Below, in pieces: positions 5,882 through 12,044 of a DNA stretch of 40,179 bases. The position numbers and the translations under genes were made by a program. The DNA comes from Edaphobacter sp. (GTDB taxonomy: Bacteria > Acidobacteriota > Terriglobia > Terriglobales > Acidobacteriaceae), in contig JAOAPF010000005.1 in the NCBI GenBank assembly GCA_025462755.1, positions 1 to 40,179 on the forward strand, read 5' to 3'. Position 1 is the first letter of the stretch, and the number at the start of each line of letters is the position of its first letter. Below the pieces are notes generated by a model that saw only the letters and a program-made list of their open reading frames with translations, was not told where the DNA came from and searched no databases.

Positions 5882-5920
5882 GACGCCGAAGTCCTTCCGG
5901 ACTTCGGCGTCTTTTTTTTT
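5882..5920 (+). terminator. Rho-independent terminator of the Oar-like receptor
   Basis: A perfect 13-bp stem (arms 5882-5894 and 5899-5911) with a TTCC tetraloop is followed by nine consecutive T residues (5912-5920). It begins 14 bases after the receptor stop codon. This is the clearest intrinsic terminator in the window. Confidence 0.95.
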
Positions 5921-5940
5921 GCTGTTTTCTGCCCAAAAAA

Positions 5941-6143
5941 CGCATGTCAAGCCCCCAAACGACCTAACCCCATATACAGCAACCACATCCCCGTGGCATT
6001 TTAGTTTCACTCAAACTGCTATACTGAATATAGAGATCAGAAAAAGAAAGCCCCGGCCATTCCCGGGGCTAATTTGTTGATAACAAGTATTTTAGCTGCA
6101 ACCCATTTATTATCAATATTTTGCCGACACTAACTACCTGCAA
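5941..6143 (+). repeat. 203-bp dispersed intergenic element, copy A
   Basis: This stretch aligns over its whole length, with no net insertion or deletion, to the reverse complement of 11842-12044. Strictly conserved blocks are CGCATGTCAAG (5941-5951), AAACGACCTAA (5957-5967), TGGCAT then TTAGTT then CACTCA with single-base differences between them (5994-6013), TATACT (6020-6025), a GC-rich hairpin ending GGGGCTAA (6049-6072), ATTTTGC (6118-6124) and TGCAA (6139-6143). Similarity continues about ten bases upstream (GCCCAAAAAA). A G-rich run lies further downstream in both copies. It sits between the receptor terminator and the convergent transglutaminase gene. Function is unknown. Confidence 0.85.
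6049..6070 (+). other. Conserved GC hairpin within repeat copy A
   Basis: An 8-bp perfect stem, AGCCCCGG (6049-6056) with CCGGGGCT (6063-6070), closes a 6-nt loop. The other copy of the element has the same stem with a different loop, so the arms are conserved while the loop varies. The following bases (AATTTGTTG) are only weakly T-rich, so terminator activity is uncertain. Confidence 0.6.
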
Positions 6144-6182
6144 CCTCTTGGATAGAAGGACGTTACGCCCAAAATACCCACC

Positions 6183-6203
6183 GGGGGGAGGGGGGTACCC
6201 CCT
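6183..6203. repeat. G-tract and GGGGGTACCCCC palindrome after the transglutaminase gene
   Basis: Two runs of six G separated by one A (6183-6188 and 6190-6195) run into a perfect 12-bp palindrome (6191-6202). This adjoins the transglutaminase stop on the other strand. A run of seven G is found at the equivalent end of repeat copy B (11802-11808, C on the plus strand), so the tract may belong to the same element. Confidence 0.5.
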
Positions 6204-7241
6204 CTAAGGACGCGCCGGTGTTTGAACGGGAGACAAAGCAGTTGCAATATCGGCAGCCTGCTGTTGCTGTGCCATCTGCTGCTGACGAGTCGGCGGCGGT
6301 GGCTGATCCGGTAACCGCGTAGCCTTCTCCACAAGAATGGACCAGTCCTCAGGCACTGGTAACTCCTGATCGAATGAAGGAGTTCCCAGGCTTGGCGTCA
6401 CCTGCACGGCCACGGTCAACTCGCTTGCCGCCCGGCCGCGAAAGATACCGTGGGTCGGCGGAACGTCTGCATAGTCCCGGCCGATCGCCGTACGAATGTG
6501 GCGGTCGCCCCCAACCAGCCAGTTCGTCGGATCGAACCCCACCCACCCCAGCGGAGGAATCAGCGCCTCCACCCAGGCATGCGTCGCCGAACTGATCGAT
6601 CGATCCATATCGCTCTCCCCGTGGAACAGGTAGCCGCTCACATACCGGCAGGGGATCCGCAGCTTCGACCGCACCAGAGCGATCATGATGTGGGCAAAAT
6701 CCTGACAAACCCCGGTTTTGGTGCTGAGCGCGAGATCGATAGGCGAATCCACCTTGGTCGATTTCGGTTTGTAATCGAAATATTCGTACATCTGCTGGTT
6801 CAACTTATGCAGCACCATCAGCGGGTCGTCTCTGCGGCGCACGTCAAAGTGCGCAGCGAGATCATCCAGCGCCTGTGTTGTCAGGGTAAACTCGCTCGGC
6901 AAAAGCATCTCCCAGTAGTCGCCCTGATTCACCATTGCATCCACGTCCGCCCACGCATCAGGCGCCAGAAACGCCGGTATCTGAGCCGCCGGCTGCACCT
7001 CGACCACCGATTCGGCAACGATCACCAACTGCCCATGCATCCCAGGAATATCAAAGTGATGCACATTGTTTGCAAGATGGTCTCGGTAGCTGAAGACCCG
7101 GCACCGCGGGCTCACCGAAAGATGAAACGTCAGACAACGCTGGTTCTGGTCGCTGCGCGGATGCATCCGCGTCTCCATCATGCTCTCGCTGACCTGGTTG
7201 CTGTACAGAAACTTCGTCAGATGGCGAATCGAGTAATACAT
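6204..7241 (-). CDS. Transglutaminase-like cysteine protease/amidase family protein
   Basis: A 345-residue cytoplasmic protein without a signal peptide. Residues about 1-80 are the small beta-rich domain that precedes bacterial transglutaminase folds. The papain-like core carries the triad Cys179 (TKTGVCQDFAH), His221 (ATHAWVEA) and Asp237 (GFDPTN). The last 35 residues are Pro/Gln-rich and look disordered. Members of this family cleave or form amide bonds. In this genomic setting (third gene after an ATP-grasp ligase and an alpha-E protein) it is thought to remove or remodel the peptide-like product. The start is ATG 7241, with AAGGA about 8 nt upstream, 18 nt after the alpha-E stop. The gene ends against an imperfect GC palindrome. 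Confidence 0.9.
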   Translation of the reverse strand: MYYSIRHLTKFLYSNQVSESMMETRMHPRSDQNQRCLTFHLSVSPRCRVFSYRDHLANNVHHFDIPGMHGQLVIVAESVVEVQPAAQIPAFLAPDAWADVDAMVNQGDYWEMLLPSEFTLTTQALDDLAAHFDVRRRDDPLMVLHKLNQQMYEYFDYKPKSTKVDSPIDLALSTKTGVCQDFAHIMIALVRSKLRIPCRYVSGYLFHGESDMDRSISSATHAWVEALIPPLGWVGFDPTNWLVGGDRHIRTAIGRDYADVPPTHGIFRGRAASELTVAVQVTPSLGTPSFDQELPVPEDWSILVEKATRLPDQPPPPTRQQQMAQQQQAADIATALSPVQTPARP

Positions 7242-7259
7242 AGCCCGTCCTTGTAAGAC

Positions 7260-8246
7260 TTACCCTGCCAGCGCAGCCTGAATGGAATAGTCAACGTACA
7301 ACTCGTAGATCGTCTCGTGAATAGCGCGGCACTGCGCCTGGATGCTTCGCAGATACCCCACCACGTCCTCGCTCAGAATTTCTTCGACGCTGCTGTAACT
7401 CAGCGACGCCCGCAATTTTCCACTGAGCCGTTGCAAACCCTCGGCTCGGCTCTTTCCGCTGTCTCCCTGTATCTTCTCGAGCGCACACTGCACGCTGTCG
7501 ATCGAGAACCGCACGGAATGGGGAAACTCCGCATCCAGCAGAAGGAACTCGAAGATCCGGTCCGGTGTCAGGTCGGCCGTATACACCTTGCAGTACGCCT
7601 CAAAGGCTGTCGCTGAGCGCAGAAGTCCCATCCAGTCCAGATACTCATTGCCTTCGCCGACTCGTTCCGAGTGGCCCCACAGATCGGCGTGGTAAGCCTC
7701 CAGCAGCAACGCCGTCGCTGAAGCGCGTTCGAGGTATCGTCCGACCTGAATGAACTGCCAGCCTTCGCCGTGATTCATGGTCGAGTCGGTAACCCCCTGA
7801 AACTGATGCACCGCCTCCATCACCGACTGCAGGAATTCGCTGGGTCGCGTCATCCCAGCCGCCTGCGCCTCTGCCTGTCTTTCGATCTGCAACTCCGGCC
7901 GCGTCACCTGCAGATAAAGGCTGTTCAACCGATGCCACTGCTCCGTCGAAATCTGCTCTCTCACATGCCGCGAGTTCTCCCGCGCGGCAATGATGCAAGA
8001 GAGAATCGAAGCCTTGTTCGTTGTATCGAAGGTCAACGCCTGCGTCAGCGCATACGGCTCGCCCTTCCACTTGATGTCCTTCGGCCTGCCCAGCGCCTGC
8101 AGCACCCGTTGCCAACGACGCTCCGCACTCGCCGCGCTCTCATCCAGCATCAAGTTCAGATTCACATCCAGCAGCCGCGTCGTGTGCTCTGCGCGCTCGA
8201 GATACCGGCTCATCCAGTACAAACTATCGGCAACGCGTGAAAGCAT
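7260..8246 (-). CDS. Alpha-E domain-containing protein
   Basis: A 328-residue all-helical protein starting MLSRVADSLYWMSRYLERAEHTTRLLDV, the characteristic N-terminus of the bacterial alpha-E family. Acidic/aromatic helices with repeated YLERA patterns follow (second copy about residues 168-173). Start choice: an AAAGGAG sequence abuts the first possible ATG (8252) but lies 6 nt before the second ATG at 8246, so 8246 is preferred. The upstream ATP-grasp stop overlaps this ribosome-binding site, implying tight coupling. The family is known almost only through its conserved association with circularly permuted ATP-grasp and transglutaminase-like genes. Its biochemical activity has not been established. 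Confidence 0.9.
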   Translation of the reverse strand: MLSRVADSLYWMSRYLERAEHTTRLLDVNLNLMLDESAASAERRWQRVLQALGRPKDIKWKGEPYALTQALTFDTTNKASILSCIIAARENSRHVREQISTEQWHRLNSLYLQVTRPELQIERQAEAQAAGMTRPSEFLQSVMEAVHQFQGVTDSTMNHGEGWQFIQVGRYLERASATALLLEAYHADLWGHSERVGEGNEYLDWMGLLRSATAFEAYCKVYTADLTPDRIFEFLLLDAEFPHSVRFSIDSVQCALEKIQGDSGKSRAEGLQRLSGKLRASLSYSSVEEILSEDVVGYLRSIQAQCRAIHETIYELYVDYSIQAALAG

Positions 8247-9946: not shown

Positions 9947-11782
9947 GTGAGCAACTCAACCGCAGTCGCCATTAAGCCCATCTTTAACATCGCCATCATC
10001 GCCCACGTCGATCATGGCAAGACCACCCTCGTCGACGCCATGCTGCGCCAGAGCGGCACCTTCCGCTCCAACGAGGCCGTCGTCGAGCTCGTTATGGATT
10101 CCAACGATCTTGAAAAAGAGCGCGGCATCACGATTCTTGCGAAGAACACCGCCCTCTACTATCACGACAACAAGATCAACATCGTTGACACTCCGGGCCA
10201 CGCCGACTTCGGCGGCGAAGTTGAGCGCGCTCTGAAGATGGTCGACGGTGTAGTTCTCCTCGTCGACGCCTCGGAAGGCCCTCTGCCCCAGACGCGCTAC
10301 GTCCTCTCCAAGGCCCTCGAAGCAGGCCTTACCCCGATGGTCGTGATCAACAAGATCGACCGCCCCGACGCGCGTCCGCAGGAGGTGCTGAACGAGGTGT
10401 ATGACCTCTTCATCGACCTTGACGCCGACGAGTCCGTCCTCGACTTCCCAGTCCTCTACACCAACGGCAAACTCGGCACCGCAACCACTGACCCCGCGAT
10501 CCCGGGCACTGATCTCCAGCCCCTCTTCGAGCAGATCATCACCACAATTCCCGTCGCCAAAGGCGAGCCCGAGGGCGCCGTCCAGATCCTCGTCACTAAT
10601 CTCGACTACTCTGATTACCTTGGGCGTCTTGCGATTGGCCGCGTCTTCAATGGCACCATGCGCACTGGCCAGGAGTACTCGGTCGCCAAGCTCGACGGCA
10701 CCTTCACCAAGCACAAGATCACCAAGCTCTTCAGCTTCTCGGGTCTCAAGCGCACCGACATCGAAGAGACCCAGGTCGGCGACATCGTCGCCATCGCCGG
10801 CATTCCCGGCATCACCATCGGCGAGAGCTTCTGCGACGTTGAGAATCCGCAGCCGCTTCCTCCGATCACCATCGATGAGCCGACGATCGCCATCCAGTTC
10901 AACGTCAACAACGGCCCCTTTGCCGGTCGCGAAGGCAAGTTCGTCACCTCGCGCAATCTGCGCGACCGTCTCGACAAAGAACTCCTGACCAACGTCTCGC
11001 TCAAGATGCAGGACACAGGCTCGCCCGATTCGTTCAAGGTGCTGGGTCGCGGCGAACTGCAGCTTGGCATCCTCATCGAGATGATGCGCCGCGAGGGCTT
11101 CGAGATGATGGTCAGCCGTCCCGAGATCGTCACAAAGAAGATCGGCGATCAGGTGATGGAGCCGGTCGAGCATCTCTCCATCGACGTCCCGGAGAACTTC
11201 GTCGGCACCGTCATCGAGCGCCTTGGACCGAGAAAAGGCGAGATGACGAAGATGGTGAATCACGGCTCTGGCCGCGTGCGGATGGAGTTCCGCATCCCCA
11301 GCCGCGGGCTGATCGGCCTCCGCTCTGAAATGCTGACCGAAACACGCGGCACCATCATCATGAACTCCATCCTCGATGGCTACATCGACTACCAGGGCGA
11401 GATTCCGCAGCGCGCCTCCGGTGCTCTTATCTCTGACCGCCAGGGCACCACGACTGCCTACGCGCTCGAAGGCCTGCAGGACCGCGGCATCCTCTTCGTC
11501 GCCGACGGCGTTGAGGTCTACGAGGGCATGGTTGTCGGCGAACACAGCCGTGACAACGACCTCGACGTCAACTGCGTACGCGAGAAGAAGCTCTCGAACA
11601 TGCGCGCGTCCGGTTCCGACGATGCTGTCCGCCTGGTGCCCTACAAGCAGCTCACGCTCGAGCAGTGCATCGAGTTCATCGCGGATGACGAACTTGTCGA
11701 GGTGACCCCGAAGTCGCTCCGCATGCGTAAGAAGGTGCTGCAGGCCAACCGTCGCCCCCGGAAGGGCTCGGGGAACGAATAA
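9947..11782 (+). CDS. typA: Translational GTPase TypA/BipA
   Basis: A 611-residue ribosome-binding GTPase of normal family length. The GTPase domain shows G1 [10 protein letters not shown], the switch region ERGITI, G3 [14 protein letters not shown] and G4 NKID. Elongation-factor-like domains II/III and the TypA-specific C-terminal domain follow, including [18 protein letters not shown] and the [15 protein letters not shown] region. It acts on the 50S subunit and is important in ribosome assembly and cold or stress adaptation (family knowledge). Translation starts at GTG 9947 with AGGA 10 nt upstream. It is divergent from the ATP-grasp operon across about 220 bp in which no clear promoter could be pinned down. 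Confidence 0.97.
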
Positions 11783-11841
11783 GCACGAGACTGGCAGTGG
11801 TCCCCCCCATTGCCCGCGATAAATCCCTTAGTTTCAGTGAC

Positions 11842-12044
11842 TTGCAGAGGGTAGACGCCTGCAAAATAATCAAAACAAAGGAGTTATCGCTTAATTAGCC
11901 AGAATCAATAACTTAGCCCCGGCCTGTGCCGGGGCCTTCGTTTCTTCCCCACTGTTTTAAGTATACCGAACTGAGTGGAACTAACATGCCAACTCAATCT
12001 TGTTTCGTTTGAGTGATTTAGGTCGTTTTGGGACTTGACATGCG
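11842..12044 (-). repeat. 203-bp dispersed intergenic element, copy B (inverted)
   Basis: The reverse complement of this stretch matches 5941-6143 over exactly the same length, with no net insertion or deletion. Conserved blocks, read on the minus strand, are CGCATGTCAAG, AAACGACCTAA, the TGGCAT/TTAGTT/CACTCA cluster, TATACT, the GC hairpin ending GGGGCTAA, ATTTTGC and TGCAA. The regions between blocks have diverged heavily. It lies downstream of typA. The rest of the roughly 680-bp gap before the kinase gene (12045-12464) contains a run of nine T residues and GC-rich imperfect hairpin sequence (about 12137-12165), but no convincing gene. Confidence 0.85.
11916..11945 (+). terminator. Probable typA terminator formed by the repeat hairpin
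   Basis: A perfect 8-bp stem (GCCCCGGC 11916-11923, GCCGGGGC 11928-11935) with a CTGT loop is followed on the plus strand by a T-rich stretch (TTCGTTTCTT). It lies about 130 bp after the typA stop and is part of repeat copy B. It may therefore terminate typA in this orientation as a by-product of the element. Confidence 0.55.

Follow-up and report, generated by a model that had tools for sequence, protein, structure and literature searches.

Why should two intergenic stretches of one Edaphobacter genome keep conserved blocks at fixed distances while the sequence between the blocks diverges? The question is raised by a window of 40,179 nucleotides (the whole stretch of DNA analysed here), in which positions 5941-6143 on the plus strand match 11842-12044 on the minus strand, ungapped, at 134 of 203 positions (66%). 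One copy letter-shuffled 5000 times gave a mean of 51.7 identities (sd 6.1) and a maximum of 73. The initial annotation had described a 203-bp pair without net indel that shares eight or more conserved blocks at identical spacing; the first point is confirmed, and for the second we count ten identical runs of at least 6 bp shared by the copies, here called A and B, along the gapless alignment. The pair was missing from the output of a repeat search seeded with 11 bases. The boundaries had been drawn too narrowly: a family profile whose 22 seeds include the two window copies extends over 5904-6231 and 12115-11776, and the element is about 300 bp long. Copy A has a gene for an outer-membrane beta-barrel on one side and a convergent gene for a transglutaminase on the other; its G-run stops at 6202, a single base short of the TAG of the transglutaminase gene. 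Copy B follows typA.

Could the pair encode a protein? A frame of 45 codons, starting at the CAT of block 1 and ending in the same TGA, is open in both copies, but it is kept at 45 codons or more in only 9 of the 65 family copies that hold CATGTCAAGYC and is therefore incidental. The annotation's view that the pair is non-coding despite its long frame is borne out, and a coding origin or small protein gene is rejected.

An alignment of 30 own-genome copies gives the order of the parts: a T-rich start, then blocks 1 and 2, a -10-like box, the GC hairpin, a tail rich in repeats and finally a G-run. The tail consists of three units of about 29 bp, and spacing is mostly constant across the element. 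Three of 35 listed copies (L025, L029 and L034) are absent from alignment A2; A3 took 19 of the 26 copies found and was aligned without structure; A5 was fitted to the structure and comprises 87 rows, and 86 of its 87 sources matched, L236 being the exception. In the window, the parts are as follows.

5912-5940, plus strand: T-rich 5' part of copy A (T-run, CTGTTTTCTGCCCAAAAAA), conserved before block 1 in the 30 own-genome copies
5941-5967, plus strand: block 1 of copy A, CGCATGTCAAGCCCC and AAACGACCTAA, identical runs in both copies
5994-6013, plus strand: block 2 of copy A, TGGCATTTTAGTTTCACTCA, from the own-genome alignment and the runs shared by A and B
6020-6025, plus strand: -10-like box of copy A, TATACT, constant positions in 66 of 66 solo (stand-alone) rows
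6049-6070, plus strand: GC hairpin 1 of copy A, arms 6049-6056 and 6063-6070, from paired cells in A3 and A5
6070-6096, plus strand: repeat unit 1 of copy A, a direct repeat of unit 2 at offset 29 (87 rows)
6099-6124, plus strand: repeat unit 2 of copy A, from A5
6138-6170, plus strand: repeat unit 3 of copy A, inverted to unit 2, from A3 and A5
6089-6126 and 6138-6175, plus strand: arms of hairpin 2 of copy A, formed by units 2 and 3
6176-6202, plus strand: G-run tail of copy A, ACCCACCGGGGGGAGGGGGGTACCCCC, from the 30 own-genome copies aligned
12018-12044, minus strand: block 1 of copy B, CGCATGTCAAGTCCC and AAACGACCTAA, identical runs with copy A
11972-11991, minus strand: block 2 of copy B, TGGCATGTTAGTTCCACTCA, identical runs with copy A
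11960-11965, minus strand: -10-like box of copy B, TATACT, from comparison with copy A and the solo rows
11916-11935, minus strand: GC hairpin 1 of copy B, arms 11935-11928 and 11923-11916 (A3 is one base off here)
11811-11914, minus strand: repeat units 1-3 of copy B, with hairpin 2 arms 11896-11859 and 11847-11811
11796-11810, minus strand: G-run tail of copy B, ATGGGGGGGACCACT; the typA stop codon (11780-11782) is 13 bases away

The T-run of copy A also follows a terminator-like hairpin (5882-5911) of the upstream gene. The GC stem that the annotation had described, with kept arms and an altered loop, is real in both window copies. Geometry was counted in 66 solo rows of A5 that the model itself chose and aligned, which bears on the constancy of box and spacing; one antisense row was dropped from these counts and kept in those of covariation and repeat units. 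Block 1 lies 56 bp from a TTAG in 58 of the 66 rows, the TTAG 19 bp from the -10-like box in all 66, and unit 2 58 bp from the end of unit 3 in 58, while the distance from the box to hairpin 1 varies. T1, A2, A4 and T6 of the box are invariant in 66/66 rows; it reads TATACT in 50, TATAAT in 9 and TAAAAT in 4, with three others. At offset 29, the direct repeats formed by units 1 and 2 have an identity of 0.519, which is 0.043 above independence as against 0.021 or less at other offsets (87 rows). Two own-genome copies (L028 and L050) contain two different IS1595-type transposase genes (PF12762) near the start of unit 3, by eye at the same place, so the element is itself an insertion target.

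How large is the family? Exact instances of the block-1 motif CGCATGTCAAGYCCC number 31 in the genome, and 13 further places have one mismatch; at up to two mismatches there are 73 places versus 24 for the reversed pattern. A covariance model, R1, was built from 19 copies, 18 of them own, including both window copies, and one from G150. Its copy counts are lower bounds because only the best candidates per genome were scored (36 in the genus survey, 18 in the family survey and 150 in a six-genome count), and its E-values are rough. The six-genome count gave at least 68 copies in the own genome (G000), 83 in G602, 70 in G542, 26 in G399 and 42 in G095, which belongs to another genus, and 0 in G600 of the same genus. 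Contamination of the G000 assembly (7.1 Mb) stands at 6%, and a different contig carries part of a second typA (87% identical), so that the assembly, and its copy count likewise, may mix two related species. R1 matches at E 0.001 in 51 of 60 genus genomes and at 1e-4 in 10 of 120 family genomes, from 7 of 79 genera; in the family survey, G031 and G095, the second genus, have at least 18 matches each and five genomes of other genera have 1 to 4 each. The match in copy B, one of R1's own sequences, covers 11811-12040 at 179.1 bits. Database records with the element pattern come from Edaphobacter, Granulicella and Acidobacteriaceae bacterium KBS 89 (21 stretches). Viral contigs held 0 instances of the exact pattern, and a virus-borne origin is rejected.

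The window pair is thus part of a large dispersed non-coding family that lies between genes of Edaphobacter-like soil bacteria, gene neighbours and intergenic position being judged by a home-made ORF scorer. The initial annotation had suggested a covariance-model search for further intergenic copies, and many were found; an isolated pair, or relatives with random indels and no covariation, would have spoken against that annotation, and the outcome favours it. The element was not found described in the libraries (Rfam) and literature searched. In the window, no Rfam match exceeds its cut-off; at 18 loci, the gathering threshold is passed only by tRNAs outside the element, and a few weak matches of unrelated families that overlap it (E 0.21 to 5.6) fall far below theirs. 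Among the papers listed, none describes it, judged by title or abstract start. Figures for Granulicella aggregans are among those tabulated in a survey of REP sequences, whose repeats may or may not include this element (PMC12306157).

What, then, do the copies have in common besides their sequence? A link new relative to the initial annotation is provided by a putative zinc-protein gene family, which we provisionally label CRHI. The spacing of C-x-H, C, C and H in the protein resembles that of a zinc knuckle, and a helical stretch is conserved. Four own-genome copies lie directly before a CRHI gene. Six of the seven CRHI matches in this genome cover the N-terminus, and nhmmer places the element or part of it upstream of all six (partial at L052 and L053). 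In a set of 30 CRHI loci, 11 have a same-strand upstream R1 match below 1e-4 and 19 do not, with weaker matches at the same place in others; among 20 loci of subfamily 2, 17 have such a match and 3 do not. Altogether, 28 of the 50 loci tested have the element upstream, and 26 of these 28 elements end within about 100 bp of the gene, the other two, at L247 and L236, lying at roughly 260 and 410 bp. In the second genus, a single CRHI match was found in each of G031 and G095, and the element lies upstream of both. Before the ATG, 4-22 nt away and in the Shine-Dalgarno place, 30 of 31 subfamily-1 genes have a G-run, and 23 of 24 subfamily-2 genes have a GGAG-type site at the same distance.

A CRHI match at 1e-6 is found in 51 of the 60 genus genomes, and genomes that have CRHI carry 1 to 12 matches. 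Element and CRHI co-occur in 47 genomes and are both absent from 5; the element occurs alone in 4 and CRHI alone in 4. CRHI exceeds no family cut-off where cut-offs are shown and gives weak zinc-finger matches only; the best over 40 members are DUF5763 (E 1.9e-4) and zf-primase (E 0.0017), and none is a transposase. There is no PHROG match, and the predicted fold of the first 150 residues (pLDDT 77.4, pTM 0.53) has no PDB match at E 0.001. Twelve CRHI-family matches occur in G119 (genus g70), whose leaders have their own repeat-unit type and extra hairpins. By eye, the CRHI leaders at L053 and L243 form near-perfect long hairpins of unrelated sequence, a striking compensatory change.

Most of the copies examined have no such gene beside them: no CRHI gene or remnant was found at 48 of 52 own loci or at the 35 of 35 loci examined among the at least 83 copies of G602. 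Why would a genome keep them? We give about an even chance to the reading that each copy is a stand-alone duplicate of the self-regulated promoter and 5' leader of CRHI genes. This reading, drawn from sequence comparison, is based on the element's presence upstream of many CRHI genes, the fixed box and geometry, and the preservation of block 1. Transcription would begin at the -10-like box, with RNA polymerase assisted by the factor or factors that bind blocks 1 and 2. The three repeat units (about 29 bp each; two direct, one inverted) would be sites for a protein, most likely CRHI, which would thereby control its own gene. Solo copies may have been kept to place further transcription under the same control, or to bind the protein.

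Several observations weigh against the promoter-leader reading. Constant as the -10-like box is, a consensus scan found no -35 box 16-18 bp upstream of it, and hence no sigma-70 hexamer pair, in either window copy; the one sigma-70 match of the promoter scan lies on the other strand, inside the repeat units. A sigma-54 promoter at TTGGCA(C/T)G was dropped by eye, since the -12 GC of the consensus is not conserved. No domain is recognised in CRHI; there is no CRHI match in 4 of the 51 genomes with the element, and 4 of the 9 genomes without the element do have one. Nor do leaders and solo copies match at the species level: within Edaphobacter, the solo units of a genome are as close to the CRHI leader of another genome as to that of their own (0.497 for own vs 0.496). 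Between genera, the own-genus likeness is higher (0.84 vs 0.58), and since the 5' part behaves in the same way (0.79 vs 0.55), plain relatedness accounts for it. Neighbouring genes occur in both orientations, their 3' ends facing the element in 46 of 69 scored cases on the left and in 41 of 74 on the right-hand side; a role as plain promoter of the adjoining gene is thereby excluded for many copies.

Is the element maintained by selection? We compared 52 own copies with 34 of the at least 83 in G602 and obtained 12 orthologous pairs, eleven by flank matching (four match both flanks and seven one, with orientation shared) and the typA copy; three other G000 copies that share a neighbour in another arrangement were excluded. 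Across the 12 pairs, identity is 88% in block 1, 79% in block 2 and 80% in the -10 region as against 58% in the filler, and the units (62%), hairpin 1 (66%) and G-tail (67%) are little above filler. Unrelated copies of the two genomes agree at 89% in block 1 and 51.5% in the filler. Seven pairs between G340 and G510 have 89/95 and 91/97 identities in the blocks (93.7 and 93.8%) versus 151/173 in the filler (87.3%); here the -10 region (108/124, 87.1%) is no better than filler, which, like the low values for units, hairpin 1 and G-tail in the 12 pairs, also counts against the promoter-leader reading, and the units stand at 83.2%. Selection on block 1 appears clear from these comparisons and on block 2 likely; for the rest of the element it is weak or unproven. 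Together with the spacing in the solo rows, the orthologous copies support the earlier claim of blocks at fixed spacing amid faster-diverging filler.

A quite different view is that the element is a non-autonomous mobile repeat, MITE- or REPIN-like, spread by a transposase or by CRHI and mostly selfish or neutral DNA. The dozens of copies per genome, in either orientation and more often beside the 3' ends of genes (87 of the 143 neighbour ends scored), fit this view, as do the at least 42 copies in G095 alongside a single CRHI match. Presence beside typA and at copy A's place varies between species; beside the transglutaminase gene, the element was found in 7 of the best-matching 24 of 46 genomes. 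We nevertheless consider a mobile repeat somewhat unlikely. Solo units are as alike within a genome (0.634, including 6 pairs of the second genus) as between genomes (0.632), a comparison of best R1 scorers, which biases it toward equality; this speaks against gene conversion or recent spread as the source of the conserved blocks, so that homogenisation does not account for them, and the best-scoring Edaphobacter copies give no sign of recent spread. The blocks outlast the filler at orthologous places, no transposase family is among the CRHI matches, and no clean empty site was recovered: where the place of L284 was compared in G510, G150 and G414, the element was at least partly matched in all three.

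Two features of the surroundings were also recorded. In G150, G414, G340, G510, G566 and G596, about 1 kb of extra sequence separates the transglutaminase gene from the one that follows; it is absent after the transglutaminase gene of the window (7242-7260). On the single contig of G095, all 9 of the 9 listed copies below 1.8 Mb are on the minus strand and 7 of the 10 above 2.3 Mb on the plus strand (19 listed copies); this could be a lagging-strand bias, GC-skew samples not having placed origin and terminus, and the bias by replichore is weaker in G542.

Does the element act as RNA? If it were a multi-copy small RNA, each copy would be transcribed, and the GC hairpin and hairpin 2 would form the working molecule. 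The constant -10-like box would suit such a gene. Hairpin 1 is paired in 91.4% of cells in A3 and 96.1% in A5; hairpin 2 is paired in 69.0% of cells in A5. In a sliding control, pairing in A5 was 73.2% in place and at most 44.4% when slid. Double-change cells number 313 in the A5 stems versus a shuffle mean of 173.1 (0 of 500 shuffles as high), and A3, with less power, shows the same pattern despite being aligned without structure (44 vs 29.1, 0/500). Set against this, A5 was fitted to the structure, and hairpin 2 has no preference for G-U (276 observed, 286 expected) over A-C (251 observed, 263 expected); hairpin 1 leans to G-U (31 against 41.6 expected, with A-C at 9 against 20.1) in few cells. 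The folding of copy A does not exceed that of its shuffles (z -1.0; 30 of 200 do as well), and RNAalifold on a plain MAFFT alignment gave only 11 pairs. In the second genus, hairpin 2 was not seen by eye, and the three units look by eye like direct repeats of another sequence. After its G-run, copy A has no terminator-like site on the element strand and copy B a weak one, and no Rfam cut-off is passed. A small RNA is, on balance, improbable.

The reading offered in the initial annotation is upheld in part. For one of its options, a structured RNA, the evidence is mixed: hairpin 2 covaries, and neither G-U preference nor the folding of copy A bears it out. Another, a multi-site protein-binding element, accounts for the data no less well. 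If several sites for the same protein changed in concert, the covariation would look like that of an RNA stem. We lean toward DNA sites for the units and keep the RNA reading as well.

Hairpin 1 of copy A is terminator-like on both strands; as a terminator of the element's own transcript it was rejected, since by eye a T-run follows in some copies and many have none. That the element serves as a transcription terminator for the convergent neighbour gene, through hairpin 1 and then a T-rich stretch on the opposite strand, is very doubtful: terminator-like sites at 6070-6049 (minus strand) and 11916-11935 (plus strand) do point along the convergent genes of the two window copies, and in 41 of 74 scored cases it is the 3' end of the right-hand neighbour that faces the element, but the other 33 start at the element, and blocks 1 and 2, the -10-like box and the CRHI genes are left unexplained.

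How does a duplicated CRHI promoter-leader compare with known systems? Autoregulatory 5' leaders are familiar, for example from ribosomal-protein genes. Like them, the element places hairpins and repeated sites before the CRHI gene, with a G-run at the Shine-Dalgarno place; unlike them, it has tens of stand-alone copies, and autoregulatory leaders are not known to be scattered in that way. Rfam's Acido-1 and Acido-Lenti-1 are likewise acidobacterial and intergenic, but at 18 loci Acido-1 gave no match and Acido-Lenti-1 a single one (L004, 21.8 bits, cut-off 37) outside the element.

The closer resemblance in layout is to the REPIN/RAYT systems of Pseudomonas and others, which share with it dozens of intergenic non-coding copies per genome, inverted-repeat parts and a tie to a lineage-specific protein gene with the same sequence beside it. 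In copy number, too, the family agrees, with at least 26-83 copies in five genomes and 0 in the sixth. As described for those systems, the RAYT partner gene encodes a REP-associated tyrosine transposase, and inverted copies of the repeat lie on either side of it (PMC2817692). The present element differs in its unit of about 300 bp with a -10-like box, where a REPIN is a pair of short palindromes; its copies look old; and it misses, as far as tested, both the transposase and the two-sided flanking. CRHI has no transposase match, and the element was found only upstream of the CRHI gene, in a search that took R1 to E 1 and up to 1.5 kb after the matched part at 30 loci, where long genes may not be spanned, and about 0.3 kb downstream or less at the 20 subfamily-2 loci. 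Tentatively, and with less confidence than the promoter-leader reading itself, we suggest that the family may be a transposase-free counterpart of REPIN/RAYT. In that case, duplicates of a CRHI promoter-leader would have reached tens of intergenic sites, where selection would have retained them while the compared species diverged, and one protein would control related promoters across the genome, most of which would yield products other than genes.

Repeats between bacterial genes are commonly regarded as selfish or inert. The copies described here carry the sequence found upstream of CRHI genes, a -10-like box, and a block 1 that is kept while the orthologous filler changes. The question of whether scattered repeats act as regulatory sites thereby becomes testable in cultured soil bacteria, and the element gives a first handle on CRHI, an uncharacterised family of putative zinc proteins.
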